A stretch of 64,000 nt of DNA from Hirudinaria manillensis (Eukaryota; Annelida; Clitellata; Hirudinida; Hirudinidae). Below are positions 3,987 through 39,700 of this stretch, one piece after another. The stretch covers positions 7,815,244-7,879,243 of the forward strand of contig CM067526.1 in the NCBI GenBank assembly GCA_034509925.1. Reading direction: 5' to 3'. The position numbers and the translations under genes were made by a program. Numbering within the stretch: the first letter of the stretch is position 1; each line of letters begins with the position of its first letter. The notes beneath the pieces are model-generated. The model made no database searches, was not told the DNA's origin, and saw nothing but the letters and a program-made list of their open reading frames with translations.

Positions 3987-4262
3987 CTCGAGTACATGCA
4001 CTCATGGTACTTGCCTTCCATTTAATGTGATCTTCAACAACTCAGACAGATTTGTAATCATTCATTGAGTGAACATTACATAATCTACTCAATGTTTATT
4101 ATAAACTCATGCAATTAACATTTTTAATTTACCTATTAATCGAATCTTTTACATACATGTCAATATCATGATAATAATCAATCATAAAGACAATATCACA
4201 ATCAATAAAAATAGTTTCGTATGATTTTATTTGTCGAATTATTCCGAAGAGTTATTATACAA

Positions 4263-14666: not shown

Positions 14667-17600
14667 ATGTTGAACAACGACAATCTGAATCACCACCACC
14701 ATCATCATCAACCTCAACAACAACACAAACAACTGGACAGTTCCACTGCTTCGCTCATACTCATGGAAACCTTGTTTAGAGAAAGACCATCCACAAAGGT
14801 CATTATTCACAGTTGTTTTTTTATTTATTTATAAACTCTATGTTTTTCCAGTTTTTTAACCACTTGAAACAATTGCTCGTGACAGCAACCGGATCAAACA
14901 TTCAGTCAAGTACGTCACGTCCAACAATCACAACAGCCTCACAGCACCAACAACAGCAATCATCAAGCAACAATACAACAACTTACAAAACTACATGCAA
15001 CTACTGCCCCCGTCAAAGTTTTTCCAAATCATTTCTTCTTCCACGCAAATCTCCTGGATCAAGCAGCCAAGAATCAACAACACCAGCAAAGGCAACAACT
15101 GCTGAATCAGTTCCTATCGTATAACAACAACAGCAACAACATTTTACCACAGGCCAGATTGGCAGCCTATCTCAGCCAGCAGAGCATGCTTGCCGACATC
15201 AAAAACTTCTACCATAGCAACAACAACAACAACAAGCCTATGTTGTCATCGGATGATCCTTCAACAACAACAACGTGCCCTCCTGCCACAGCATCTCTCC
15301 AACAACTCCAGCAACAAATCTTCAACTTTCCGACTACAAAGTTTCGCTCCAAGTTTGACTCAAGATCAGAGTTTGCAGATTACAGAGGTCATTGGAGAGT
15401 CGAGCATTTCTTAAATTATTTTATTAAATCGAACAAAAAATATATATTTTTACATTTTTATAGTTTACAAAAATAAATGAAAATCAGTTTGAGATAAAAA
15501 AAAAATGTTCAAATGCCGGATGTTTACAGACACGGCAAGGTGAGAAATCATGCTAAACTGAATTTGAAATTAATTTATTTTTAGAACGAAAATCAGAAAG
15601 CGAAATCCAACAATCCCCACCAAAGTTGACACCCGAATGTCCTGATGTCGTCAAACCAAAGAAGGTGCCCAAATTTCCAACGACTTCTGATTCTCCGTGT
15701 TTCTCTGGTGCTTCCACTTCTCCACCGATCCGCAGTCCTTTCAATCCATCAACTGCTTCCATAAAATGTGAACTCAGACACGAAGAGGATGCTGAATCCA
15801 GCTTTGAAACTCATAGGTCCTCGAGATCAGATCTCAAGTTCAGTGTAAACGCCATCTTGTCAGCGGGACCCACAGTTACCAAAGATCTCAAAAGTGATTG
15901 TTATTTTTTATCCAGAATTTTTAAATAATTATTTCAAAATAGTCGTTGTTATTTTCCAAAAATTTTATTTGAGAATCTTCTTGGAATATATTGAGGAGTG
16001 TAAAACCATTCTAAAATCATGAGGATCAATTGAAATGCACCATCTTCGAACTTTTAAGCCATGGAAATACAAACGAGGATACAAATATTTTTTAAACTAA
16101 TAAAGGTTATTTATCTCCATGCATGTTAATATTAAAATGTAAAAATCAAATTAACATAATTCTCTTCAAAACAGAAGAATGCCAGAAACTGAAAAAAGAA
16201 TCCTTATCTTCTACATCGTCACCTTCTCCATTAACATCGTCGTCGTCATCTTCATCTTTGGTTGTGCCTACAGAGAACAAAGGCGCCGAGGTCCATTTCA
16301 AGACAGGGGCTTTATACCACGGCTTCATTAAGCCAAACCCTGGTCACCAACCAAACCCCTACTCCCATTTTTCCGGGCCAATTCACTTCAACCAATCAGA
16401 ATCGTCGTCTTTTATGACATCTGCAGCTCCAGTAAATCACATCATGATAGCTAATAATATCCGCCAATCGCATCACCCTTACGGCCTCTTGCCCAACGAC
16501 GCGGTAGGAAGCATTCCGGGTACTGGAATTTCACCTGGTTCTATTTTTAGGATGCCTTATGACGCCATGGATGCGTTCAAGCAGACATATTTTCAAGGTC
16601 AGTCAGTGAGCACCTGCTCTATCAATATTCAATTCCTCGAAAACATTGCATTGAGGAATATATTATCATATAATTTATAATTTTTGGAGGAGGAGGTATG
16701 TTTGGCCTGCACAGCACCCTTTCATTTCTCGGGGGCCTGAGGGGCAAACCACGACGCGGGATGTTGAGGAGGGCCGTGTTCTCGGATTTCCAGCGCAAGG
16801 GACTGGAAAAGGTCTTCATCAAGCAAAAATACATCAGCAAACCAGATAGGAAAAAACTGGCAGAAAAACTCGGACTCAAAGATTCTCAAGTTAGTATCGA
16901 GTGAGTGAGTGAGTGAGTGAGTGAGTGAGTGAGTGAGTGAGTGAGTGAGTGAGTGAGTGAGTGAGTGAGTGAGTGAGTGAGTGAGTGAGTGAGTGAGTGA
17001 GTGAGTGAGTGAGTGAGTGAGTGAGTGAGTGAGTGAGTGAGTGAGTGAGTGAGTGAGTGAGTGAGTGAGTGAGTGAGTGAGTGAGTGAGTGAGTGAGTGA
17101 GTGAGTGAGTGAGTGAGTGAGTGAGTGAGTGAGTGAGTGAGTGAGTGAGTGAGTGAGTGAGTGAGTGAGTGAGTGAGTGAGTGAGTGAGTGAGTGAGTGA
17201 GTGAGTGAGTGAGTGAGTGAGTGAGTGAGTGAGTGAGTGAGTGAGTGAGTGAGTGAGTGAGTGAGTGAGTGAGTGAGTGAGTGAGTGAGTGAGTGAGTGA
17301 GTGAGTGAGTGAGTGAGTGAGTGAGTGAGTGAGTGAGTGAGTGAGTGAGTGAGTGAGTGAGTGAGTGAGTGAGTGAGTGAGTGAGTGAGTGAGTGAGTGA
17401 GTGAGTGAGTGAGTGAGTGAGTGAGTGAGTGAGTGAGTGAGTGAGTGAGTGAGTGAGTGAGTGAGTGAGTGAGTGAGTGAGTGAGTGAGTGAGTGAGTGA
17501 GTGAGTGAGTGAGTGAGTGAGTGAGTGAGTGAGTGAGTGAGTGAGTGAGTGAGTGAGTGAGTGAGTGAGTGAGTGAGTGAGTGAGTGAGTGAGTGAGTGA

Positions 17601-19130
17601 GTGAGTGAGTGAGTGAGTGAGTGAGTGAGTGAGTGAGTGAGTGAGTGAGTGAGTGAAGGAATGAATATTTCTTGGATTCGATGACCAGAAGTTTCATAAG
17701 ACAAAATGGTGGATAGTTTTGTTCATTCAAGCATGAATGACTGACGCCATCCATTTATTAGAGAAGCGAGGAAATGAAATATTAAAAACCTGGCGTCACG
17801 TGTGACGTGCTGATGACGATCATCAATAATATTTAAATCGTCATAAAAAATCACCTTTTTTTATCACCTTTATCGCATTTATATCATCATTAATAATAAT
17901 ATTTTCGTTTTAAAATTATTATCATTTAATGATTAATATCGATATTTATGTTATTGTTGTTGTTGTTGTTAATTTGAGATACAAAAACGTTTACGCTTTC
18001 CATGAAATTACGAACGATGAACATCCACAGCAATGACTTAGACCCAACATCAATCTTCTTCAGCAATTAACTCGAACAATCACATTTTATGATTTCTAAG
18101 GTTATAACATCTGTTGAAGGTTGTTTCAAAGATCACGCAAACACGTGCTGAATTGAGTCCCTGAGTAATTTATGCGAAACTCAAATTCATTATCGATCCT
18201 CATTTTCTACTCACTCTGACGGTGAGGCTTCGCGGCCATCTTGGGGAGGCTATGGGGAGACGGGTAGCTCTCCTTAGAGAGCACATGCAGACGATTCAAT
18301 GTGTCCCACGCTTGTCATTGGAGGGAATTCACACGTGTTGAATGCTTGAGTGCATTTGCTGATCGCGCGTCAACAAGTGCTTGAAGCCGATTATGGGATG
18401 TTGGTCTCGCGTTGAATAAATATCAATTGATTAAATCACATAAAGCAATAACGTACGATGTTAACGATTATAATTGATATTTGTCAATTTAGTTTTTAAA
18501 CGAGATTTAATTTTTTTTTCGCAGGTGAAAATTTGGTTTCAAAATCGTAGAATGAAATGGCGCAACAACAAGGAACGTGAAATGCTCACTTCAGTTTCTA
18601 GCGTCAACCAGAAGATCACCAACAACAACAACAACATCAACAACCAAAGCAACAGCAACAGAATCATAGGTGCATGCGAGGGCATGGCCAATAATCACCT
18701 TGGCAAGAAATCTTTCCACCAATCAGAAGAGGGGGCGGCATCATTTAAAATCCCAAACAACTCGATTGGTCGAGAGAGGGATCAGTCTGCTCAGACAAAC
18801 AACACAAGCAGCAGAAACTTCTGTCGTCTCGATGGAGTCGTGTTTAACGCAGCGGATCATTTTAAGGCGCCATTTGAAGTTCAACCTAGAGCTGGTGACC
18901 TTTTGACCGGTGACCTCGGCAACATCAAGCGAGAACCAATCAGCTGTCAGAATAAAGATGAACCCAACACCGATCCAATCAGTCGAACGAGGGCTGACGA
19001 TGACGACGAAGGAGATGAGGACGATGATGATCGGGGCGGTAGAATGGTGACTTATACCGACTATTCAGACCTTAATGATGATGATGATGGCGATGATGAC
19101 GAAGAAGATATCGATGTCGATTCGAGTTAA
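14667..19130 (+). CDS. Dbx: Dbx-family homeobox transcription factor, six exons
   Basis: Exons 14667-14798, 14886-15387, 15585-15893, 16175-16597, 16690-16889 and 18525-19130. All phases agree; 2172 nt gives 723 residues, about twice vertebrate DBX1. N-terminus: His/Gln-rich, then ASLILMETLFRERP (residues ~26-39), which resembles the FLIENLLR-type motif of Dbx. Residues ~45-211 are Asn/Gln-rich. DLKFSVNAILS (294-304) matches FLKFGVNAILS of DBX1. Homeodomain 479-538: GMLRRAVFSDFQRKGLEKVF, then YISKPDRKKLAEKLGLKDSQ and VKIWFQNRRMKWRNNKERE, diagnostic for Dbx. The intron between homeodomain residues 44 and 45 is the classic Dbx position. The C-terminus is acidic (about 50 residues of D/E), as in DBX1. 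It is a DNA-binding regulator of neural patterning in relatives. Donors gtcatt and gtgatt are weak. AATAAA lies at 19425. Exon 1 may have an earlier 5' partner. Confidence 0.88.
16899..17656 (+). repeat. (GTGA)n array, ~189 perfect units, at the homeobox intron donor
   Basis: 758 bp of uninterrupted GTGA. It begins nine bases after the true donor GT (16890) of Dbx exon 5 and lies wholly in intron 5. The sense strand has no C. TGA stops occur in every sense frame. The long THSL-repeat ORFs on the minus strand are repeat artefacts. The last units decay to aggaatgaat. Confidence 0.97.
18232..18243 (-). promoter_or_regulatory. YY1-type site (GCGGCCATCTTG) in Dbx intron 5
   Basis: The reverse complement CAAGATGGCCGC fits the YY1 consensus. 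It sits in a GC-richer patch (about 18220-18390) within an AT-rich intron, which suggests a regulatory element. Function is inference. Confidence 0.35.
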
Positions 19131-36717: not shown

Positions 36718-39700
36718 TCAATGTTCATCTCCTCCCTCCGCCTCCTTCTCGACAACTTCCGACAAAAGGCTCAAAAGATGGTCGAACTTGGCCAACCTCT
36801 CCGACCTGTCGACCTCTGCCCCTTTGGAACCCCACATGAACTTTGCTTGAAACGAGGGGTCGAGAATGCACAGCAGGTCGTCGTTAAGAAGCGAAGCAGG
36901 ATTCGACTTCAGGAATCTCTCGGTGGCTTCCTTGAAAAGGTGGATTCGACTCGTGACGAGACGAGCCGTTTCCAGGTGAACGAGGACGACTTCGAGCCCG
37001 AAGAAGGGCTGATTCATCTCCCACGAACCCAACTTCCAGAACCCCTACCATTAAGAACAACCATTTTTAACATTAAAGAATGAATTATTAATAAATAAAC
37101 AGCTGACTTCAGAGCCAAGGTATAATAATGCAATTAGAATAATGTTTCATGATTTTTTGACAACAAAACCACTCACTCACTCACTCACTCACTCACTCAC
37201 TCACTCACTCACTCACTCACTCACACTTCCAACAGCAATCACAAATGACATGAACAATCATTTACAAGTACATCGCTAAAGCACCACAAAAACCTACTTC
37301 ATCGTCCGCGTCATTGGACGACCTCTCGAGAAGGTCGAGCAACGGAAAGACGTGCGGAGCGATGGAATCTTTTTGGTGGGGGAGGGTCAGCCCCGAGGCA
37401 TCCAGAAAGGCCCGGTAACTGGTGAGAAGTTTCGTCTCAAAAATCTGTCGACAGAGAAAGGTATAAAGAAACTCTAAGAAAATAAATAGCAGGATGTCAG
37501 AACGAGTAACGTGCCTATGAACGAAATTAAAGGACAACAGATGTTATGCTTTGAGTTTGAACTCTTGAACTGCAACATGAGCACTCAGGAGAAGAGGACG
37601 ATATAAATAGAATGCTTTATTATGAGGACTTCAAAACACATGTTTATTATAAATATTAATATTACACATCTTTATTAATTGTATGTTAATGAGGCTTCAA
37701 ATTGTAACGATGCTAAACAAACAATCCCACATGAATACAAGTCATTGAATGCACTATTATAAAGAGTTATTATGAGTTATGATAATAAATAATTGAATTA
37801 CAATATCATATTCTCCACGAATATTTTTTACATACAATTATAAAATGATCTTTGATAAACAAATAAATAAATAAAGCAAATAAATTACAAAGTAAATTTT
37901 AACAGATGCATACCTCAAACACCACTTGATGATATTGTTTGACAAATCTCCAGCTTTTCTTCAGTCTCACTATCTTCATTGAAAGGAATAGGAATAAATC
38001 ATAATAATTCATACAAATTAGTGAATAAATCATAGTTAACCACAGTAATTACTTGTAAATTCAAGGTGAATAACATAATCCACATGCTATTATTATTGGC
38101 TCATGCATTTTATTCAGAAGTTCTTAAAAGATTTATTAAAAACTTTGTCACCTGTGATGAACAAAGAGCATCCATTACAGAATAGAAACTGAACATATTT
38201 CCAGTGTTTGATTTTAATTCCATGGCAACAGATAGCCAATGGGATATCAGATCACCTCTTTCCTTAATAGTTTGACCTTTAAGGATCATGGCAGAGGTAA
38301 ACATTCTCAGGCAGTAATGTCTGTGATGCATCATTAACAAAATTTGAAAAAAATTGGAATGAAATGAAAGATTATTATGAGATTTCCTTATGATGATGTT
38401 TAATTCAATGTAATTATTGTAAGATTTCAAAAGGAAAAAGCATAATGTTTATTAATTAGTAATAATTATTATCCCAATACCACCCAATTGAGTTAACTCG
38501 ATTAACTATCAATGTCATTTAAGTAAGATATTAATGAGACAGGTACAGAATCTACACTAGATTTTGAGATACCAATTCTGTAATTTATGTGGTTAGAAAG
38601 GTTGGCTTATTCAAGTTAAAGAATCTCAGAGGATGTTTGCATCTTATTTCTCACAACTAATTGATTCCAGATTTATAAATTTTGCTTAAAACTACCTTTC
38701 AATGGCTTTTTGTCTCAAATAGTGACCTTGGGGCAGAGTCAACAATTCAAGACCAGAGACAAGATCAAGTTCATGATGATGAGTTGGAATGATTTGCAGG
38801 ATCTGAATGTCAATGTAGGTCATGTGCCTGGAATTCAAAGTGTTGCTGATTTGACATTAATTAATGAAGTTTCGTGCTGTAGTCACATGAAAGGGAGGAA
38901 AGTAAAAATTGTAAAATAAATGAAAATAATCAATAAAATCAAATGTTATTAAAAAAAAAAATAGAATTTCATGAATACCTGGCAATGCTTCCTGCAGATG
39001 CCTTCAAAATTTCCAAAGTGATGCTGGACAGGGCAACGGGATCCAGAGGTTTGTTATTTGGCGGTAGGAAAGGATTGGAATGAAGTTCACTGCTGCAGGA
39101 TGGTGATGATGATGATGTTGGCTTGGGCTCAGAAGAGGGAGCTTCAACATTCAACATTCATTAAGTAAATACAGACAGATAATCATTCAGTTGCACCCAC
39201 CCAGGAAATAATTTTGATAATTGCATAATTGTTCTACTTAGGTATAGGTAATTGTTCTGGCAATAAATACTCTATTTGGAACACACTATCAGTACCCAGA
39301 GCAAATTTCTGCAAAACTTCAAAGATTTTCAAAACATTCCAAATTATCACCTGCTATAGTGATGGCCTGATCATCATCGCTGTCATCACTGTACAGTCCA
39401 TCATTCCTCACTTTTACCATCGGTCTAAAACTGGTATCATTGAATCTCAAGGTCGGAACTCTACTCGGTTTTGGAGGAGGCTGTGTTTTGGGAGAAGCAC
39501 TAATTTCTGTCGAAGCACTCGGTAAAGACGTCCCCTCCGGTAATGCCGAGGGTTCGCTGGTCCCTGACAGCAAAAATGGAGGGGGTGGAGGAAGTTGTTC
39601 ACAGTCTGTAGTTGCTTCTGAAGCTGCTGGATTCAGGTACCCATTTGAATCTTCTGCAGTAATGCCTAAGAAAGATGGGTTCCTGTGTTCCCCGTCATGT

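Follow-up and report, generated by a model that had tools for sequence, protein, structure and literature searches.

The stretch of DNA analyzed here, referred to as the window, comprises 64,000 nucleotides of the Hirudinaria manillensis genome (GCA_034509925.1, contig CM067526.1, positions 7,815,244 to 7,879,243). Its plus strand carries a homeobox gene, the joined-exon protein of which matched PF00046 at 73.2 bits. By sequence, BarH-like 1 was the best solved relative; the gene itself is putatively Dbx. The exon encoding the homeodomain up to residue 44 extends from 16696 to 16889 on the plus strand and is called exon 5 according to the numbering of an earlier, sequence-only reading of this DNA. 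Its start is ambiguous between 16690, 16693, and 16696, where three AGs follow one another. Exon 5 ends at a donor with the sequence CAA/GTTAGT (slashes mark exon-intron or exon-exon borders), which occupies 16890 to 16898 on the plus strand (GTTAGTATC, GT at 16890). The intron that splits the homeodomain runs from 16890 to 18524 on the same strand and is 1,635 bp long. At 18525, the acceptor cgcag/GTG restores VKIWFQNRR, and the exon that follows, from 18525 to 19130 on the plus strand, encodes the remaining homeodomain and the C terminus up to the stop codon. The joined-exon translation reads RGMLRRAVFSDF...LKDSQ/VKIWFQNRR. This agrees with the earlier reading, which had placed the division of the homeodomain between residues 44 and 45 at the donor GT at 16890. 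The boundary of another split homeobox (L053) reads CAG/GTTAGT. The homeodomain exon of the window has a Dbx-like paralog, with which it shares 75% identity, at C5:5698003-5698134 on the minus strand.

A perfect (GAGT)189.5 array begins 9 bp past the donor GT, with ATC lying between GTTAGT and its first unit. It covers 16899 to 17656 on the plus strand, 758 bp with neither mismatches nor indels, and fills 46% of the intron. Like a microsatellite, it consists of a 1- to 6-bp unit repeated head to tail (189.5 copies, 100% match). The uninterrupted 758-bp GTGA array that the sequence-only reading described nine bases behind the donor is therefore real, as is the tandem arrangement of donor-like hexamers, but their number was slightly overstated: instead of about 189, there are 188 complete GTGAGT hexamers, the first at 16901 and the last at 17649. 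Elsewhere in the window, GTGAGT occurs 15 times on the plus strand and 20 times on the minus strand, with 13 of the latter contained in a second array at 37170 to 37224. That array, read from 37224 to 37170 on the minus strand, is a perfect GTGA repeat in sense orientation that begins 73 bases past the donor of a 253-nt intron. The minus-strand gene that holds it is presumably SH2 plus RasGEF-like. In the window, neither Rfam models at their gathering cutoffs nor a bacterial-code tRNA scan gave a match. Among the matches listed in literature searches on GTGAGT, leech, or exon-border microsatellites, U1 in connection with pseudo sites or short tandem repeats, and leech Dbx, we recognized no such array in the titles and abstract openings.

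The GAGT motif is dispersed throughout the genome (148.4 Mb, 23 contigs), as is typical of microsatellites. Overlapping GAGT 32-mers yielded 52,394 matches, of which 28,945 were forward and 23,449 were reverse. In the four phases, 1,364 starts of perfect arrays 24 bp or longer were counted (332 + 444 + 150 + 438), a total to which an interrupted array contributes more than once. The 121 starts on C1 fell into 84 clusters, which extrapolates to approximately 845 clusters genome-wide. Arrays of at least 296 bp preceded by C numbered 29, the one in the window included. GGAT, which has the same base composition and contains no GTGAGT, was even more common than GAGT, with 66,968 matches; GAGT is therefore not favored for its likeness to a donor. 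Perfect 32-bp arrays of GGTA, which spell AG/GTAGGT, had zero matches on either strand of the whole genome. Their absence could be caused by mutation bias or by selection against repeats that carry a fuller donor. Simple repeats account for 1.8% of the H. manillensis genome according to the repeat figures given in PMC10671345. The array in the window is not chance sequence, yet it is one among an estimated 845 clusters.

The relationship between arrays and donors was evaluated from the letters that precede array starts. Starts in the donor-like phase G/GTGAGT without G at -3 numbered 212, compared with 127 for the mirror-image control. Among 100 listed of the 212, the letters ahead of G were TG in 74, A was at -2 in 10, and CA or AA preceded in just 3; these letters were counted by eye, for this one phase. 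Assuming random placement, 18,106 genes (the gene number provided in PMC10087013), and 4 to 8 introns per gene, 2.3 to 4.5 sense clusters are expected to start within 11 bp after a donor genome-wide, and approximately 52 to 103 within 250 bp.

Split homeoboxes were considered separately. We picked 55 of them from the listed matches ending at profile positions 44 to 49 and examined 35 of the 55, approximately 4 kb downstream of each. GAGT arrays were present in 2 of the 35 stretches (L040 and L049), compared to 0.91 expected. The probability of observing two or more is 0.23, and enrichment in split homeobox introns was rejected as not significant. Stretches around full-length homeoboxes contained an array in 0 of 30 cases (0.54 expected). 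At L040, a sense array starts 215 bp past the end of the homeobox match, and no acceptor was found within the stretch. At L049 (C13:6597200-6601718, minus-strand gene), a perfect (CTCA)n array of 598 bp at 4130 to 3533 lies in antisense orientation and nearly fills an intron of approximately 660 nt. This intron sits inside the homeobox, with the exon reading ...TEARIQ/VWFSNRR. The array abuts TTCCAG, the final six bases of the intron, so the repeat itself would need to supply the branch point and the pyrimidine tract; its CTCAC is similar to a branch-point sequence.

Overall, three of the arrays that could be placed in genes, two in the window and that of L040, are sense and downstream of a donor, versus one clear antisense case, L049. 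A strand preference is possible, and four arrays are too few to claim it. Inspection by eye of arrays met regardless of genes (L001, L005, and L074 to L078, amounting to six places since L005 and L074 overlap, with three loci partly N) revealed no exons abutting them. At positions 554 to 874 of L001, a channel-like coding stretch lies on the opposite strand approximately 0.6 kb from the array and may represent a second antisense case. Two further observations were made in the genome. At C2:13032133-13041363 on the minus strand, nine matches to the homeodomain score almost the same and are mostly spaced at 941 bp, as if a homeobox had been tandemly amplified. The single above-cutoff match to the hirudin family, at C4:12249547-12249618 on the minus strand, contains an in-frame TAG in the stretch that was read.

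Considering the purity of the array, the abundance of its motif, and the rarity of donor-like letters before starts in the donor-like phase, we regard it as very probable that this is an ordinary, neutral, and recently expanded tetranucleotide microsatellite, that its U1-like sites are incidental, and that splicing is most likely unchanged. Replication slippage would have lengthened a short intronic GAGT run until this allele reached 190 units, the left end of the array coming to lie 9 bp from the donor by chance. The GTGAGT hexamers would then be a by-product of the repeat unit rather than the result of selection, and splicing would most likely keep using 16890 and 18525. The slippage origin, the neutrality, and the normal splicing of the intron are what we infer from these observations. 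The idea of a special set of decoys in a key developmental gene found no support: the motif is very common and GGAT is commoner still, donor-like letters seldom precede the arrays, and a few arrays close to donors are expected by chance. The picture is striking locally and fades against the genome background, where donor-like hexamers simply accompany a common repeat unit.

Some points count against neutrality. The true donor is predicted to be weak, with only 1 of 32 leech homeobox donors pairing as weakly; the array occupies the region in which U1 binding matters in the human PAH gene; and both arrays in the window, together with that of L040, are in sense orientation behind a donor. The lack of GGTA arrays fits a mutational bias, but it fits selection against good-donor arrays as well.

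To compare the array units with the true donor, we predicted their pairing with the 5' end of U1, in which pseudouridines were treated as U. Values of -3.6, -6.5, and -14.0 kcal/mol were obtained for the true donor, the decoys, and the consensus, respectively. In a comparison of 10-mers, on which scale the true donor has a value of -2.8, 1 of 32 leech homeobox donors was equally weak, and 25 were predicted to pair with U1 at -6.5 or better. A generic donor matrix built from human frequencies scored the true donor at 1.35 and a decoy at 1.30; the first decoy reached 2.77, and the consensus 8.75. The units read TGA/GTGAGT, which fits the consensus on the intron side and on the exon side has neither A at -2 nor G at -1. 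A matrix was also derived from the leech donors themselves (32 of the 35 split loci, boundaries read by eye; L039, L040, and L048 were dropped because their boundary was unreadable). Over positions -3 to +6, it scored the true donor at 9.07 versus -0.28 for the decoy, a result not to be trusted, since the conserved glutamine codon biases the -3 to -1 columns; restricted to positions +3 to +6, it scored the decoy at 3.25 and the true donor at 2.55. The suggestion that the decoys fit U1 better than the true donor stands for predicted pairing; the label consensus-like overrates them in view of their exon side, and the two are tied on the generic matrix. Judged by these predictions, the array units are mediocre sites next to a weak donor, and in principle they may compete with it or help it.

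Help could come from the units closest to the donor (GT at +12, +16, and onward): by binding U1, they would help to define the weak donor while the cut stays at 16890. A U1-dependent intronic enhancer of this type requires a U1-pairable site near a weak donor, and such a site is predicted here (-6.5 versus -3.6 kcal/mol). There is also a precedent. In the minigene experiments described in PMC5933811, a GT at +18 of PAH intron 11 binds U1 and raises exon 11 inclusion, serving as a donor in 4 of 30 and 1 of 30 clones. On the other hand, the paralogous exon on C5 has no array close by in three listings of array starts that reach past its place, and the proximity of array and donor is expected by chance. 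An enhancer function is unlikely in our view.

The opposite outcome would be competition, with the units drawing U1 off the true donor and acting as decoys or as a silencer. Its coding consequence was determined by translation. Splicing from the decoys at 16901, 16905, 16909, 16913, and 17649 produced a protein ending in ...KDSQVSIE in 5 of the 5 cases tried, and intron retention gives the same end. The first stop in the sense frame, TGA at 16902 to 16904 on the plus strand, applies to retention of the intron and to any decoy after the first, whereas the first decoy (16901) also stops because the next exon, too, begins with GTGA. The truncation at ...KDSQVSIE that had been predicted for decoy use or intron retention was thereby verified. 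Some transcripts would end in this manner and would be subject to nonsense-mediated decay or encode a protein without the recognition helix. The better predicted pairing of the decoys with U1 would favor such competition, and the PAH +18 site, once optimized, was used in 8 of 30 and 26 of 30 clones (PMC5933811). Against it, the units have neither A at -2 nor G at -1 and tie with the true donor on the generic matrix, and selection would be expected to act against the loss of such a regulator as long as decoy use is not rare. We consider diversion of U1 by the array quite improbable.

In a more far-reaching model, the array would be a U1 platform, its length tuning the use of the weak homeobox donor, so that slippage would make individuals differ in the dose of a developmental regulator. 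This is a long shot in our estimation. Were it correct, the gene would provide a natural series of array lengths from which to gauge how the number of U1 sites downstream of a donor improves or impairs its use.

The array might alternatively have arisen from a donor, with GTGAGT donors serving as seeds of GTGA microsatellites. The sense orientation of three of four gene-placed arrays downstream of a donor and the excess of G/GTGAGT starts over the mirror-image control (212 versus 127) are in line with this. However, the preceding letters tabulated above are rarely those of a donor (CA or AA in 3, A at -2 in 10, and TG in 74 of the 100), the donor in the window reads GTTAGT and is separated from the array by ATC, and the donor-free GGAT arrays are commoner. 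As a general origin, donor seeding was disfavored by the preceding letters and by the GGAT isomer, for one phase and the 100 listed of 212 starts, and it is highly improbable here. Perfect long repeats may generally be mis-sized in assemblies, but HiFi reads averaging 18.73 kb (the figure stated in PMC10671345) far exceed 758 bp and should span the array well, and L049 holds another perfect array of 598 bp, which makes an assembly artifact hardly credible.

The array can be compared with several known systems. In intron 5 of the dog LHX3 gene, loss of one 7-bp repeat leaves an intron too small (68 bp) and causes a splicing defect, as reported in the account given in PMC3223203. The two cases are alike in having a repeat within an intron of a homeobox gene, and they differ in that the leech intron is 1,635 bp long. 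Tandem alternative 5' splice sites resemble the array in presenting several closely spaced GTs, and the extra sites of the leech gene are putative. For PAH intron 11, the data presented in PMC5933811 show the natural donor alone in liver, with the U1-binding GT at +18 itself hardly used. The likeness consists of a U1-pairable GT some 10 to 20 bases past the donor; PAH has one site with tested function, whereas the leech array comprises 188 sites with predicted pairing. Among tested mechanisms, that of PAH comes closest to how the leech array might matter. Intronic tetranucleotide microsatellites share the 4-bp unit and the perfect array, and in this genome the motif recurs in approximately 845 clusters by extrapolation; the leech array differs from them only by its place, 9 bp past a donor.
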